In this document: piece after piece, positions 30,911 to 62,209 of the stretch
Layout of the letters: each line of letters starts with the position of its first letter
Position numbering within the stretch: position 1 is the stretch's first letter
From: Terriglobales bacterium
GTDB taxonomy: Bacteria; Acidobacteriota; Terriglobia; Terriglobales; Acidobacteriaceae
Assembly: GCA_035764005.1 (NCBI GenBank)
Contig: DASTZZ010000069.1
Coordinates: forward strand, 62,001 to 126,000
Direction: 5' to 3'
DNA: 64,000 bases
Program-made: the position numbers and the translations under genes
The notes under the pieces: generated by a model
The model's input: the letters and a program-made list of their open reading frames with translations, nothing else
What the model was told of the DNA's origin: nothing
Database searches by the model: none

Positions 30911-31006
30911 AAAGCAGTCAGCACTCAGCTCTCAGCATTCAGCCAAAGCTCCTGAACTGGGCCGCAGTGGCTGATTGCTGACGGCTGAGTGCTGATTGCT
31001 GCTTTA
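30911..31006. repeat. CAGCACTCAGC inverted repeat at the ftsL stop
   Basis: AAAGCAGTCAGCACTCAGC at the left pairs with GCTGAGTGCTGATTGCTGCTTT at the right, with short CAGC-type units between. The right end runs into the TAA of ftsL (31004-31006). It fills the ftsL-ftsI gap. Confidence 0.8.
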
Positions 31007-31748: not shown

Positions 31749-31888
31749 TGCTACTGCTGACTCTCTACTTCCAAACTTGTTAAGCCGGTTCAGCACCGCT
31801 CGATGAGGTAGGTGTGCTGAAGATTTGTCTTTCGCCCTTAAGTTTCATCCGGCAGGACGATACTGAACCGGTCAACCTCGAAAAACCA

Positions 31889-31986
31889 TTTCGTGATTTC
31901 CTGATTTCGCGATTTCGCGATTGAGAATCAATCTGCCTTTACAATCGCGCAATCACGAAATCACGAAATCACCAAATCACCAAATT
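31889..31986. repeat. CGTGATTTC/GAAATCACG repeat at the rsmH stop
   Basis: Left units TTTCGTGATTTC, CTGATTTCGCGATTTCGCGA and right units AATCACGAAATCACGAAAT then CACCAAATCACCAAATT form an imperfect long hairpin made of 7 to 9-base units. The right end adjoins the rsmH stop at 31988. Confidence 0.75.
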
Positions 31987-38346: not shown

Positions 38347-39762
38347 ATGGATATGGATCGTCGTGATTTCTTGAAGACCGCGGGCAAGGCCGCTACGGTA
38401 GGCGCTGCCACGTTGGCGCTAGGTGGCCGAGTTCTGGGCGCGAACGATCGGGTCCGGCATGCAATTGTCGGCCTTCGCGGACGCGGTAATGATCATTTGC
38501 GCGGATTTTCCAAGGTGCCAAACGTCGAGATCGCTGCCTTCTGCGATATCGACGATTCCGTCCTCGCGCACCGGCTCGATGAAGTGCAGAAGATGGGTCT
38601 GCCGAAGCCGAAGACGTATACCGACGTCCGCAAGCTGCTCGAGGACAAAGATATCGACACCATCTCCATTGCCACGCCCAATCACTGGCATTCGCTGATT
38701 GGGATCTGGGCGTGCCAGGCCGGCAAAGACGTCTATGTCGAGAAGCCGTGTTCGCACAACACCTTCGAAGGCAAGCAACTGGTAAAGGCGGTGAAGAAGT
38801 ACAACCGCATCTGCCAGCACGGCAGCCAGTCGCGTTCCAATCCGGGAATGATGGAAGCTATCAAGCACAGCCAGGACGGCACCATCGGCGACGTCTATCT
38901 CGCGCGCGCTCTCTGCTACAAGTGGCGCAACACCATCGGGCACGCCTCTCCCGAACCAGTTCCGCCCGGAGTGAACTATGACCTCTGGACCGGGCCAGCG
39001 CCGATGAAGCCATTCACGAAGAATCGTTTCCACTACAACTGGCACTGGATCTGGGACACCGGCAACGGCGAAATCGGAAACCAGGCCATCCATGAAATCG
39101 ACATTGCGCGGTGGGGACTCGGCGTGAAGTTTCCCGTTCTGGTCTCCGCCACCGGTGGGCACTTCATGTTCGATGACGATCAGGAAACACCCAACATCCT
39201 CAACGCGACGTATTACTTCGAAGGGCCGAACGGCAAGCGCAAGATGATGGAGGTCGAGGTTCGCCACTGGATCACCAATCACGAGGCTGAGATCGGCACG
39301 GGGGCTTACGGAAGTTCCGCCGTTCCCGCAGCAGGACTCGCGCCGGCGCGCCCGGCACGTGCATCAGCCGGAGCTCAGGCGCTTGGTCCGCAGGACGCGA
39401 AGACGAACACGATTGGGAACATCTTCTATGGCTCAAATGGCTATCTCGGCATTGACGGCTACGACGCGTACAAGACGTGGCTGACCAACAAAGCTGAGCC
39501 AGGTCCGTCCGGCAAAGCATCAGGCAATCACTGGGCCAACTTCATCGATTGCGTGCGCAGCCGTAAAGCGGAAGACCTGCATTGTCCGATTGAGGAAGGT
39601 CACATCTCAACGACGCTCGTGCATCTCGCGAACGCCTCATACCGTTTAGGTCGCACGTTGAAGTTCGATCCCGAAACGGAACAGGTGGTCAATGACGACG
39701 AAGCGAACACGATGTTGCGCGGAACGTACCGTGAGCCTTATGTAGTGCGGGAAGAGGTGTGA
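38347..39762 (+). CDS. Exported Gfo/Idh/MocA-family oxidoreductase
   Basis: A 471-residue NAD(P)-dependent dehydrogenase with a twin-arginine leader (MDRRDFLKTAGKAATVGAAT). The Rossmann domain includes VRHAIVGLRGRGNDHL, AFCDIDDS and ISIATPNHWHSLI; EKPCSHN holds the catalytic-region Lys. The C-terminal domain contains WHWIWDTGNGEIGNQAIHEID. Exported members of this family oxidise or epimerise sugar rings with bound cofactor. Together with the isomerases it forms a carbohydrate-modifying set. The next isomerase (40238) would follow directly were it not for the inserted S23-type unit. Confidence 0.92.
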   Translation: MDMDRRDFLKTAGKAATVGAATLALGGRVLGANDRVRHAIVGLRGRGNDHLRGFSKVPNVEIAAFCDIDDSVLAHRLDEVQKMGLPKPKTYTDVRKLLEDKDIDTISIATPNHWHSLIGIWACQAGKDVYVEKPCSHNTFEGKQLVKAVKKYNRICQHGSQSRSNPGMMEAIKHSQDGTIGDVYLARALCYKWRNTIGHASPEPVPPGVNYDLWTGPAPMKPFTKNRFHYNWHWIWDTGNGEIGNQAIHEIDIARWGLGVKFPVLVSATGGHFMFDDDQETPNILNATYYFEGPNGKRKMMEVEVRHWITNHEAEIGTGAYGSSAVPAAGLAPARPARASAGAQALGPQDAKTNTIGNIFYGSNGYLGIDGYDAYKTWLTNKAEPGPSGKASGNHWANFIDCVRSRKAEDLHCPIEEGHISTTLVHLANASYRLGRTLKFDPETEQVVNDDEANTMLRGTYREPYVVREEV

Positions 39763-39766
39763 AAAA

Positions 39767-40236
39767 AGCTGCCAGCTACCAGCTTCCAGCTACCAGCCAA
39801 AGGCCCCCCGCGTGAGCGCGAGACGGATTTTGCAGATAGACCATGAGTGATTTTCGCAATCTGATTGTTTGGCAGAAGGCCCACGCCTTGGCGCTTGATG
39901 TGTATCGAGCCACCGGTGCATTTCCGCAATCGGAGCTCTATGGATTGACGTCGCAGATGCGGCGATGCTGCGTTTCCATTGGATCCAACATCGCCGAGGG
40001 CTGCGGACGTGTCGGCGAACTTGAGAAGAACCGTTTCCTGCGTATTGCCTCGGGTTCCGAAAGTGAACTCGAATATCAACTCATTCTCGCCACCGATCTC
40101 GGTTACCTCAACGCGAAAACCGCGCAGGATCTGACGAATAAGGCGAGAGAGGTAGGTCGAACGCTAGCTTCCTTGATCGAGAAAGTTCGGGGTGCCCATG
40201 CCTAAACTGGAGGCTGGTAGCTGGTAGCTGGCAGCT
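39767..40236 (+). mobile_element. Inverted-repeat unit carrying a four-helix-bundle gene
   Basis: Left arm 39767-39798 (units AGCTGCCAGCTACC, AGCTTCCAGCTACCAGCC) and right arm 40212-40236 (GGCTGGTAGCTGG, TAGCTGGCAGCT) are complementary; the right arm lacks one 7-base unit. The unit starts 4 bases after the oxidoreductase stop and ends 1 base before the isomerase ATG. It contains only the gene at 39843-40205. No transposase is encoded, so mobility is inference. Confidence 0.55.
39843..40205 (+). CDS. Four-helix-bundle protein (S23/IVP family)
   Basis: A 120-residue all-helical protein: FRNLIVWQKAHALALDVYRA, FPQSELYGLTSQMRRCCVSI, GSNIAEGCGR, LRIASGSESELEYQLILATD and a final helix. These are the standard motifs of the 23S rRNA intervening-sequence protein family, also related to the Avd accessory protein of diversity-generating retroelements. 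Members form rings and bind nucleic acid; their function is not established. The gene lies not in an rRNA but between two sugar-enzyme genes and inside inverted repeats. Confidence 0.93.
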   Translation: MSDFRNLIVWQKAHALALDVYRATGAFPQSELYGLTSQMRRCCVSIGSNIAEGCGRVGELEKNRFLRIASGSESELEYQLILATDLGYLNAKTAQDLTNKAREVGRTLASLIEKVRGAHA

Positions 40237-40237
40237 T

Positions 40238-41086
40238 ATGTTCACCCGTCGCACTTTCCTTGCCGCTCTCGCTGCTTCGCCCCTCCTTGCTTTCGCGCGT
40301 GAGCACGCGGCCGACATTAAAGTCGGTGTGTGTACTCGCGACTTTAACAATGCCGCAAGGTATGGTTTCGATTACATCGAACCTGGTGCGGCTGACATCG
40401 CCGCCATGAGCGATGACGACTTTAACGATTATTCGACCGAGCTGCTCGCGTCACCTCTTCGTTGTCGCTCGCTGAACAGTCTGATACGCCGTCCCGATTT
40501 GAAAGTGGTTGGGAACGATGTTTCTCTCTCGGCTGTCAGCGATTACTTGGAGCCGTGTTTCGCGCGTTGCAAGAAATTGGGCGCATCAGTCGTCGTGTGG
40601 GGCAGCGCGGGATCGCGCAATGTTCCTGACGGATTTTCTCGCGATAAAGCATGGGAGCAGATTGCCACGTATCTGCACATGGCCGGCGATCTGGCCAAGC
40701 GCCACGACTTGATCGTTGCCATCGAACCGCTGCGCCACCAAGAAAGCAACATCCTGAACACCGGCGCCGAGGCGCACAAGATGGTGCGCACGGTGAAGCA
40801 TCCGAATGTGCGCATGATCATCGACTACTACCATATGCGCGTGGAAAACGAAGACCCACGCATTGTCGAAACCGCCAAGCACGACATCGTGCATCTGCAC
40901 TTTGCCAATCCGCATGGACGCGTGTGGCCGCACGATCTAAGTGAAGACGAGGAGTACAAGAAGTTCTTCCGCTATCTCGGCGACATTCGCTACTCGGGTG
41001 GAATTTCCGTTGAGGGCAAAGGCTCGTTCGATGCGGACGGCACGGCGACGCGGGCGTTCTTTCGGGAAGCTGTGAAGCTGGCGTAA
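40238..41086 (+). CDS. Exported sugar-phosphate isomerase/epimerase-like protein
   Basis: A 282-residue TIM-barrel protein with a leader (FTRRTFLAALAASPLLAFA). Metal-site pattern: VAIEPLRHQESNILNT with a Glu, MIIDYYHMRVENED with Asp and His, LHFANPHGRVWPHD and ISVEGKGSF with a Glu. It is of the same broad family as the genes at 36351 and 37239 but clearly distinct. The ATG follows the repeat arm by one base, so no normal ribosome site is possible; translation would use the repeat sequence or be weak. Confidence 0.88.
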   Translation: MFTRRTFLAALAASPLLAFAREHAADIKVGVCTRDFNNAARYGFDYIEPGAADIAAMSDDDFNDYSTELLASPLRCRSLNSLIRRPDLKVVGNDVSLSAVSDYLEPCFARCKKLGASVVVWGSAGSRNVPDGFSRDKAWEQIATYLHMAGDLAKRHDLIVAIEPLRHQESNILNTGAEAHKMVRTVKHPNVRMIIDYYHMRVENEDPRIVETAKHDIVHLHFANPHGRVWPHDLSEDEEYKKFFRYLGDIRYSGGISVEGKGSFDADGTATRAFFREAVKLA

Positions 41087-41131
41087 GAACACTTCTTCCG
41101 GCAAAAGTAAGCTTCCATTGCGCGACAATCA

Positions 41132-41401
41132 GAGGCCCGAAGGGCCGGAAGAAGCGCAGCCCAGCGGCGTGAGCCCTGGGTAGAAGACACCGAGAGACCT
41201 GAGCCCTGAAAGGGCGGCATAGGTTCTGCGCACAGCATTCCATATCCCATCAACCATGAGCGAAGAACGACGCCCTAGCCCATGATCTGTTCCGATCTGG
41301 GAAAGAGCCATCAATGCCGCCCTTTCAGGGCTCGGCTCGTGGTCGGTCGCTAACCCAGGGCTTACGCCGCTGGGCTGCGCTTCTTTCGGCCTTTCAGGCC
41401 T
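41132..41401. repeat. 270-bp element with long nested inverted repeats
   Basis: Arms at 41132-41181 and 41352-41401 pair over nearly 50 bases with few mismatches (GAAGCGCAGCCCAGCGGCGT against ACGCCGCTGGGCTGCGCTTC). A second pair, GAGCCCTGAAAGGGCGGCAT against ATGCCGCCCTTTCAGGGCTC, is perfect over 20 bases. The middle of about 90 bases is unpaired. There is no gene in it. Confidence 0.9.
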
Positions 41402-41482
41402 GGCATTCTTGCGTTGGATCTGTTTTCACTTGCGCGTGGCGGCAATAAAAATGGCCCTCTTGCGAGGACCATTTTGAGAACT

Positions 41483-60552: not shown

Positions 60553-62209
60553 TTACGCATTTGCTATGCGGACGCCGATCTCGCCTGTCCGCTCTAATTC
60601 AAGCGGCAAGCGCACATGAATTGTCGTTCCGCTCATCGGCTTTGATTTAATAGTGATGGTTCCATTTATCAACCGAATCCGTTCGCGCATGCTGGCGAGA
60701 CCCAGGCCGTTGCCCTGCATTGCAGCCTGGACATCGAACCCTCTCCCAGAATCACTGATGATCAGGTGAATCTCTCTCGACTCTTCGCGAAGTTGTACTT
60801 CGACGTGCTTCACGTCGCTGTGCTTGACCACGTTATGGAGAGCCTCTTGCAACACTCTATATAGGGGAAGTCCGATATGGGACGGTAGAACCGTTTGAAC
60901 ATCGCTGCTGAAATCGATTTCCATTCCCTGCAACCCGGCAAATTCCCTGCACCATGCCTTCATGCCTCCAACGACACCGAGGTACTCCAGTTTCGACGAG
61001 TGCAATTCATGAGAGAGGGCCTGGATGTCATTCGAGATCTCCAGAACCTGTGAATGCATACCGTTGACGGCCGTCGGGATCTTAGAGGGATTGTCCAGGA
61101 CTTGTTGTAGTTCGATTGCGAGGATTGCAAGTCTTTGGTTGATGTCATCGTGGAGCTCGCGGCCAATGCGGGAGCGCTCTTGCTCTTGCGCCTGTATCAA
61201 TCCGCGACTCAGGTGTGCGAGCCTATCACCAACAACCTTTTGATCCTCCACGAGCGCGGTAAGCACCAGAAAGGGCGTCGCAGTAACGATGAGGAACCAC
61301 TGCAGTGAGTTAATGCTGCTTCCCGTTCCCATTGCGTGGAACGGACCTTGTCCATGAACTTCACCCCAAACCGATATAAAACTAATAATGATGATGGAAC
61401 TGGTGATTCCAACCGATCCGAAGCGCAAGGCGGACCACAGTAGAAACGGCACCAGAGCGTACAGAAGTGTTGGGAACGCGCTTGTAGCAGGCGTGCCGAA
61501 TATCACCCAAGACAGAAATGCCGTGGCGGTGAGAAGCACACCAAATTCGAGATGAAAGACGGTCGACTTTTTCAGCCATGCAGGCCCTTCGCTGAACCAA
61601 CTTAAGAAAGCCGGCGTCAGAGTGATGAAGGCCAGCGCTTTCCGATAAGAAGCTGACTCTCCAACTAATCCAGTAGGAACCGGGAATCCCCTGTGCGCTG
61701 ATAAATGCCCCGGCTGAAGGAGCGAGAAAAACAGCAACAAAATAGTACTTCGCCAAAGCACCGATATTGTTGAGGCGAGGCACACCTTCAAAGCAGTACC
61801 GCAAACCGGCTGCAGCCACGAGAACTTGGATCGTATCGGCCGGGAGAAACCAGGCAATCGAGGAGACCGGTACGCCTGCCTGGATGTCATAGAGAGCAAA
61901 ACCCAGAAAGGAGGCGGCTATCATCACCGCCCAAATCCTCGTGTGAACAAGCAGCATTGCCGCAACCAGAATCGCGCAACCTGGCCAAAGCGGCCACGTG
62001 GTTTGGGGGTTCAGCATTAAATCGCTTTCCAGTTTTGGGACTACGTAGGACAGGACAGAGACCACACCGATCAGTACGATTGTGGATTGGTGGGAATTCA
62101 GATGCACCGCCCCTGCCGATGATCGATCGGCAGTGCTGCCCACGGTCTGCAAACCGGAACGCGAGGAAATCGTCAGAGCAATGTCCAGTCTATCGAGGGG
62201 ACGCCTCAA
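60553..62209 (-). pseudogene. MASE1 histidine kinase, frameshifted
   Basis: The first frame (61642-62209) encodes MASE1-type membrane helices (IVLIGVVSVLSYVVP, LWPGCAILVAAMLLVHTRIW, GALAKYYFVAVFLAPSAGAF). The frame switches at the AAA run (61639-61641, TTT on the plus strand) to 60553-61640, continuing LAFITLTPAFLSWF with more helices, then a HisKA_3 domain (RSRIGRELHDDINQRLAILA, His about 25 residues after the last helix) and an HATPase (SDSGRGFDV, GNGLGLASMRERI). Removing one A restores one product of about 550 residues. No response regulator is adjacent. The start of the first frame (TTG 62209) is uncertain. Confidence 0.82.

Follow-up and report, generated by a model that had tools for sequence, protein, structure and literature searches.

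A four-helix-bundle gene enclosed by inverted heptamer arrays, probably a small mobile hairpin cassette, between two operon genes of a Terriglobales bacterium

The window considered here is a 64,000-nucleotide stretch of DNA from Terriglobales bacterium (Acidobacteriota; GenBank assembly GCA_035764005.1, contig DASTZZ010000069.1, forward-strand positions 62,001 to 126,000). Our subject is a 470-base unit at positions 39767–40236 of the window, which lies between two co-directional genes and encloses a small gene for a four-helix-bundle (FHB) protein, of a family so far known chiefly from inserts in ribosomal RNA. Upstream, outside the unit, is the host gene for a Gfo/Idh/MocA oxidoreductase (38347–39762), and downstream is the host gene for a xylose-isomerase-like TIM-barrel protein (AP_endonuc_2; 40238–41086), both on the forward strand, as are all parts of the unit. 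The oxidoreductase stop ends at 39762, 4 bases before the unit start at 39767, and a single base separates the unit end at 40236 from the isomerase ATG at 40238; these boundaries, taken from a first-pass annotation made from the letters alone, proved exact to the base. The 5′ arm (39767–39797) consists of four degenerate heptamers, AGCTGCC, AGCTACC, AGCTTCC and AGCTACC, followed by AGC. The FHB gene (S23/IVP, PF05635; 120 aa) occupies 39843–40205, and the 3′ arm (40207–40236) is an inverted heptamer array that pairs with the 5′ arm.

As an inverted repeat, positions 39766–39796 match 40207–40237 over 31 nt with 90% complementarity and a spacing of 410 nt. The first-pass annotation had correctly recognized inverted arms, but the repeat that it named, GCTGGTA, is only the complement, on the 3′ arm, of the degenerate heptamer AGCTNCC of the 5′ arm. 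In the predicted RNA fold (minimum free energy −201 kcal/mol, z −4.4), the arms pair and the whole gene lies in the loop, as had been suggested, and none of 100 shuffles was as stable. A profile search matched the 120-aa open reading frame (ORF) to PF05635 (23S_rRNA_IVP) with an E value of 5e-38, and it also matches TIGR02436 ("four helix bundle protein"), in agreement with the S23/IVP-type identity first assigned to it. A match to bAvd (PF22296, E 7e-8), under the cut-off, marks the protein as a distant relative of that family.

The genome that carries the window (5.1 Mb, 97.5% complete) holds five FHB genes by protein search, on contigs C69 (the window), C106, C65, C19 and C99 (frame-shifted), and a PF05635 profile search gave nine matches, not all of them listed. 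Each of the five genes is flanked on both sides by inverted arrays of its own heptamer: AGCTNCC, GCAATAG, TTCGGCT, GTTTCGG and TCAGCAN. The first-pass annotation had not seen that the repeat sequence changes between copies while the 7-nt period stays, or that arms and protein co-vary. Its suggestion to search for the arms with and without the gene was fruitful, as they occur in both forms. The AGCTNCC arm motif, with up to 2 mismatches allowed, has 59 matches genome-wide, compared with 1 for a reversed-pattern control, and TCAGCAN has 68 compared with 0. FHB genes account for a minority of these matches; the others often form inverted pairs around a short loop, and the same heptamer strand comes first in 12/12 TCAGCAN pairs and 7/7 AGCTNCC pairs, as read by eye from the lists.

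A de novo scan of 456,063 bases of this genome, which assumed no sequence and looked for an inverted partner within 700 bases, found 15 arrays at lag 7, every one with such a partner, 6 arrays at lag 8 (3 paired) and 1 at lag 9 (paired). Lags 10, 12 and 15 gave 2, 4 and 2 arrays, none of them paired, lag 14 (a multiple of 7) gave 7, and lags 4, 5, 6, 11 and 13 gave zero arrays in the same bases. Among six gene-less hairpins sampled, five have their best match in the arms of an FHB gene present in this genome (best-of-5 null P < 0.0005 for four and 0.069 for one), and the gene-less hairpin at C19:45686 has in common with the FHB unit at C19:203234 both the arm and the bases on either side of it. 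The window itself contains two gene-less hairpins, neither assigned to a strand: one at 30913–31000 built of TCAGCAN, the heptamer that also forms the arms of the C99 FHB gene, and a period-8 hairpin of the GATTTCGT type at 31888–31985, which by eye resembles the arms of a second FHB subfamily. Nested forms were also seen: on contig C129 (L058:1991-2254), a heptamer hairpin surrounds a second hairpin of 9-mer-like CACGGAGGA repeats, so that the periods differ, and a pair on C103 with a 400-base gap has nested hairpins inside and no obvious FHB ORF in frames judged by eye.

As a rule, genes of this family are enclosed by inverted arrays with a period of 7 or 8. A first set comprised 62 homologous loci from a scan of named genomes plus the five genes of this genome, 67 in all, and in 41/67 the flank pairs exceeded the 99th percentile of 1819 controls from the same loci. 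A second, separate set comprised 50 loci, one from the present genome and the others from related genomes, and a Smith–Waterman score (SW) of at least 30 was found in 43/50, compared with 1/497 controls; loci L274–L276 were tested in contig orientation, and L245, the same gene as L011, was removed after this test. Addition of 20 loci of the second, divergent FHB subfamily brought the total to 136 genes. An SW of at least 28 together with a best period of 7 or 8 scoring at least 15 was found for 106/136 FHB genes, compared with 5/1464 control positions, those 5 coming from two loci only. By set, the count is 39/62 for the cross-phylum loci, in 12 named phyla by hand-assigned labels, and 67/74 for the acidobacterial loci and the present genome's own together. 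Among the 112 loci with SW of at least 28, 84 have a best period of 7 and 22 have one of 8. A chance origin of the repeats was rejected on this enclosure and on the genome-wide motif counts, which lie far above their controls; the arms are linked to the gene family rather than scattered at random. On plasmids, nearly all of them cyanobacterial, period-7/8 arms were found at 10 of the 17 loci read, out of 28 records with a match.

The composition of the repeats was analyzed at 100 loci. In the main subfamily, AG occurs in 51 of 57 distinct repeat units (shuffled 31.8, standard deviation 2.9), whereas in the second subfamily it is depleted, at 5 of 18 units (shuffled 10.1, standard deviation 1.9). 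Main-subfamily arms mostly have 4–5 units (53/80 upstream, 57/80 downstream). In Anabaena sp. 90 (L323:2110-2483), the 5′ arm has grown to dozens of heptamers, showing that array length can run away.

The arms vary with the protein. Over 105 loci, arm similarity and protein similarity are correlated with a Mantel r of 0.49, and none of 1000 permutations reached that value; an arm similarity of at least 0.6 is found in at most 0.5% of pairs under 55% protein identity and in 72% of those above 75%. This correlation is partly vertical, because many copies in Opitutales share flanks. Arms are nevertheless alike where flanks are unrelated, as in L314/L308 (91% protein identity), L011/L228 (82%) and L011/L238 (79%), and in the pair L078/L064 (74%), which joins Armatimonadota and Planctomycetota. 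Among 99 loci with a clear period, periods 7 and 8 cluster on the protein tree, with 11 changes compared with a shuffled mean of 16.9 and 0/500 shuffles as low. Period as a marker of protein clades was nevertheless weakened as a candidate, since it switches many times.

The comparison of the locus with relatives supports insertion, and the unit is not a constant feature of this place. All four congeners that keep both neighbours (G001, G002, G003 and G004) have nothing of the unit between oxidoreductase and isomerase, and in G002 the two genes overlap by stop and start. No synteny with the congeners was found past a cluster of three to four genes. In Picosynechococcus PCC 7003, a unit that runs from the cas10 stop to the cmr3 start gives the order cas10–FHB–cmr3, whereas PCC 7002, whose cas10 is 93% identical, has 12 bases instead. 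Likewise, Anabaena sp. 90 has cas6–FHB–cas4, whereas Dolichospermum UHCC 0315A, which shares 99% identity with it on the cas4 side, lacks FHB and has a different 245-base spacer. Units within CRISPR-Cas operons were observed on three cyanobacterial plasmids (L156, L317 and L323), twice between cas6 and cas4 and once between cas10 and cmr3. No target-site duplication was seen in the unit flanks inspected by eye, the divergence of the congeners being too great to place the junction.

The units also show a strand bias. The analysis covered 106 loci, those of the 112 with SW of at least 28 whose arms were located and had 350 bases on both sides, and the longest ORFs, called without a gene finder, were taken as neighbours. 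In 54 of these armed units both neighbours share the direction of the FHB gene, and in 9 both oppose it (p 6e-9); in the other 43 the two neighbours differ in direction (25 and 18). For the 54 co-directional units, the median distance between neighbour ORF and arm is 2 bases on the upstream side and 6 bases on the downstream side.

Hairpins were also compared between genomes with and without FHB genes. The first sample gave 14 lag-7 arrays per 200 kb in FHB-positive genomes and 0 in FHB-free ones. A larger sample, which includes the first, gave 26 arrays (12 paired) in ~506 kb of FHB-positive sequence and 6 (2 paired) in ~469 kb of FHB-free sequence, which weakened the proposal that heptamer hairpins are confined to FHB genomes. 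Both paired FHB-free arrays of the larger sample lie in one genome, G057.

The best explanation of the locus, to which we assign a probability of about two in three, takes the window unit to be a small mobile hairpin cassette that inserted into a host operon, between two of its genes. The only protein of an FHB cassette probably reads the cassette's own repeat array, in a manner comparable to the reading of GAG triplets by the TRAP ring. An FHB pentamer would bind its array as a single strand or hairpin, with about one heptamer per subunit, and arms of 4–5 units would be matched to the homopentameric ring of a solved relative. Binding may promote copying or insertion of the folded unit, with host replication, repair or RNA enzymes as candidate catalysts, and the gene-less hairpins would be non-autonomous copies served in trans, as REPINs supposedly are by RAYTs. 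In transcripts, the arms could form a long double strand from which RNase III would cut the unit out of operon mRNA, and this cutting would let an insert within an operon cost the host little, as with the intervening sequences (IVS) of 23S rRNA.

Several observations weigh against a mobile cassette read by its own protein. The arm test was failed by 30 of the 136 FHB genes, and 7 of the 17 plasmid loci lack arms. The order of units is mirrored only weakly between arms, above shuffled in 46/68 (p 0.003). No catalytic site is known for the FHB protein, and array binding by it is putative. Many Opitutales copies share locus and flanks and look vertically inherited. Since the congener flanks are 70–77% identical, the exact junction is not fixed there, and the unit may instead have been lost in the relatives. 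One of the six gene-less hairpins of this genome fits the arms of no resident FHB gene. Between genomes, paired lag-7 arrays were found in 5/17 FHB-positive and 1/10 FHB-free genomes sampled, and gene-less hairpins show only a moderate tendency to accompany FHB genes. The FHB-free G057 (L365, L366) lacks a PF05635 match, yet carries a paired AGTGGTC/AGTGATC heptamer hairpin, which may reflect loss of an FHB gene or another helper. No movement event was observed.

An alternative is that Y1 transposases of the IS200/RAYT-like kind move the hairpins, the FHB gene being a passenger or accessory. The genome has 12 Y1_Tnp genes, and REPINs are likewise dispersed hairpins with a cognate gene (PMC3116915, seen in part). 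The likeness extends to inverted-arm hairpins with and without that gene, to cognate arm classes, to short hairpins beside a longer gene-bearing unit, and to dispersed gene-less hairpins with arms like those of a cognate gene in the same genome, as in the 5/6 above. However, the FHB protein is a four-helix bundle with no known catalysis rather than a Y1 (HUH) tyrosine transposase, and its arms are period-7/8 arrays whose sequence varies with the FHB protein. Of the eight Y1_Tnp loci read (L332–L339), seven lie inside their own long inverted REP-type arms and none is truly heptameric; L333 gives some lag-7 signal, with heptamers at its outer edge only, and L337 has no arms. In this genome, two unrelated protein families each lie inside their own kind of inverted arm. 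We regard transposase-driven hairpins as unlikely, though ahead of the other alternatives. Behind the isomerase, at 41100–41405, the window carries paired inverted repeats (GGGCC..., CAGCCCAGCGGCG..., GAGCCCTGAAAGGGCGGCA) that, judged by eye, look like the arms around the RAYT-like Y1_Tnp gene at L332 (contig C115) and are probably a REPIN of that class.

It is improbable, too, that the hairpins are host regulatory elements, namely terminators or RNA stabilizers grown by replication slippage, with the FHB protein an ordinary regulator encoded beside its own binding site. Their intergenic position, the A-rich and T-rich flanks seen by eye at several of them and several shared-locus copies in Opitutales would suit that role, whereas presence and absence between close relatives and alike FHB units at unrelated loci speak against it, and slippage alone leaves the inverted partners of 15/15 arrays unexplained. 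The slimmest chance goes to an RNA-level retroelement, in which an excised IVS-like RNA would be reverse-transcribed and reinserted by a reverse transcriptase in trans, with the FHB protein acting like Avd of the diversity-generating retroelements. The two proteins belong to distantly related four-helix-bundle fold families, although the bAvd score is under the cut-off, and the same-strand bias and predicted RNA fold suit such an element. However, RVT_1 has no match in the 97.5% complete genome, with control genomes positive; a reverse transcriptase may have been lost since, or may lie in the missing 2.5%. The first-pass suggestion of an RNA-level element spread with the help of its own protein remains a conjecture, with which the strand bias and fold are compatible without proving it.

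The mobile cassette proposed here most closely recalls the 23S rRNA IVS of Coxiella and Leptospira, in which a PF05635-type ORF with complementary ends lies in a stem loop. The Coxiella IVS is a 428-nt unit of similar size closed by an inverted repeat of ~28–31 bp; tandem GACAGAT heptamers, whose copy number varies between strains, lie directly upstream of its S23 start codon, and RNase III cuts it in vitro (PMC4990558, available in part, as throughout). S23 is probably not made in Coxiella (PMC4990558), so that the Coxiella copy would be decaying. The same source describes the Xanthomonas S23 protein as a homopentameric toroid; the Xanthomonas campestris FHB protein XCC0516 (organism name per PMC4990558) is PDB 2gsc, and PDB 2gsc and 2rld have five chains each. 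The window unit differs in lying between two protein genes and not within a gene for 23S rRNA; the first-pass annotation had anticipated such an IVS-like arrangement in a protein-coding operon. By strict definition, it is neither an rRNA IVS nor a REPIN. None of the 62 cross-phylum loci holds an rRNA gene, and these units are therefore not rRNA IVS; the shared-locus Opitutales copies were likewise rejected as rRNA IVS.

Heptameric repeats are themselves known from Xanthomonas (GGGAATC) and Nostoc as intergenic arrays, mostly of 4 units, with 70 and 75 inverted heptamer pairs in two Xanthomonas genomes (PMC4692102, available in part). That paper treats the Xanthomonas heptamers as G-quadruplex formers, and the terms "S23" and "four helix" do not occur in it. 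The Coxiella paper, in the portion available, mentions heptamers but does not state the family rule, matched arms or gene-less copies (PMC4990558). The rRNA IVS, the Xanthomonas inverted heptamer pairs and REPIN/RAYT systems are already known, and the rule that joins them may be new. In a literature search of titles and abstracts, covering few subscription journals, no link between FHB proteins and heptamer arms was found except in the Coxiella IVS paper; a prior description may exist.

More tentatively, and at somewhat short of even odds, FHB proteins may define a class of mobile hairpins across many phyla that is new to the literature searched. In this class, the only protein would be a non-enzymatic ring that reads an array of 7- or 8-nt period whose sequence is free to change, each subunit taking one repeat unit. 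The rRNA IVS, known for decades and still called unclear in function and origin (PMC4990558), would be those members that inserted into 23S genes, and the heptamer hairpins of many bacterial genomes would be non-autonomous copies. If true, this would give a role to a widespread family of "hypothetical" proteins, account for the over-representation of heptamer repeats in many bacterial genomes, and join rRNA intervening sequences to a general class of mobile elements. The cognate repeat of each FHB protein can be read beside its gene, which makes recognition directly testable, and the recurrence of a gene with matched repeats between ordinary genes in many phyla suggests a type of mobile element that has so far been overlooked.
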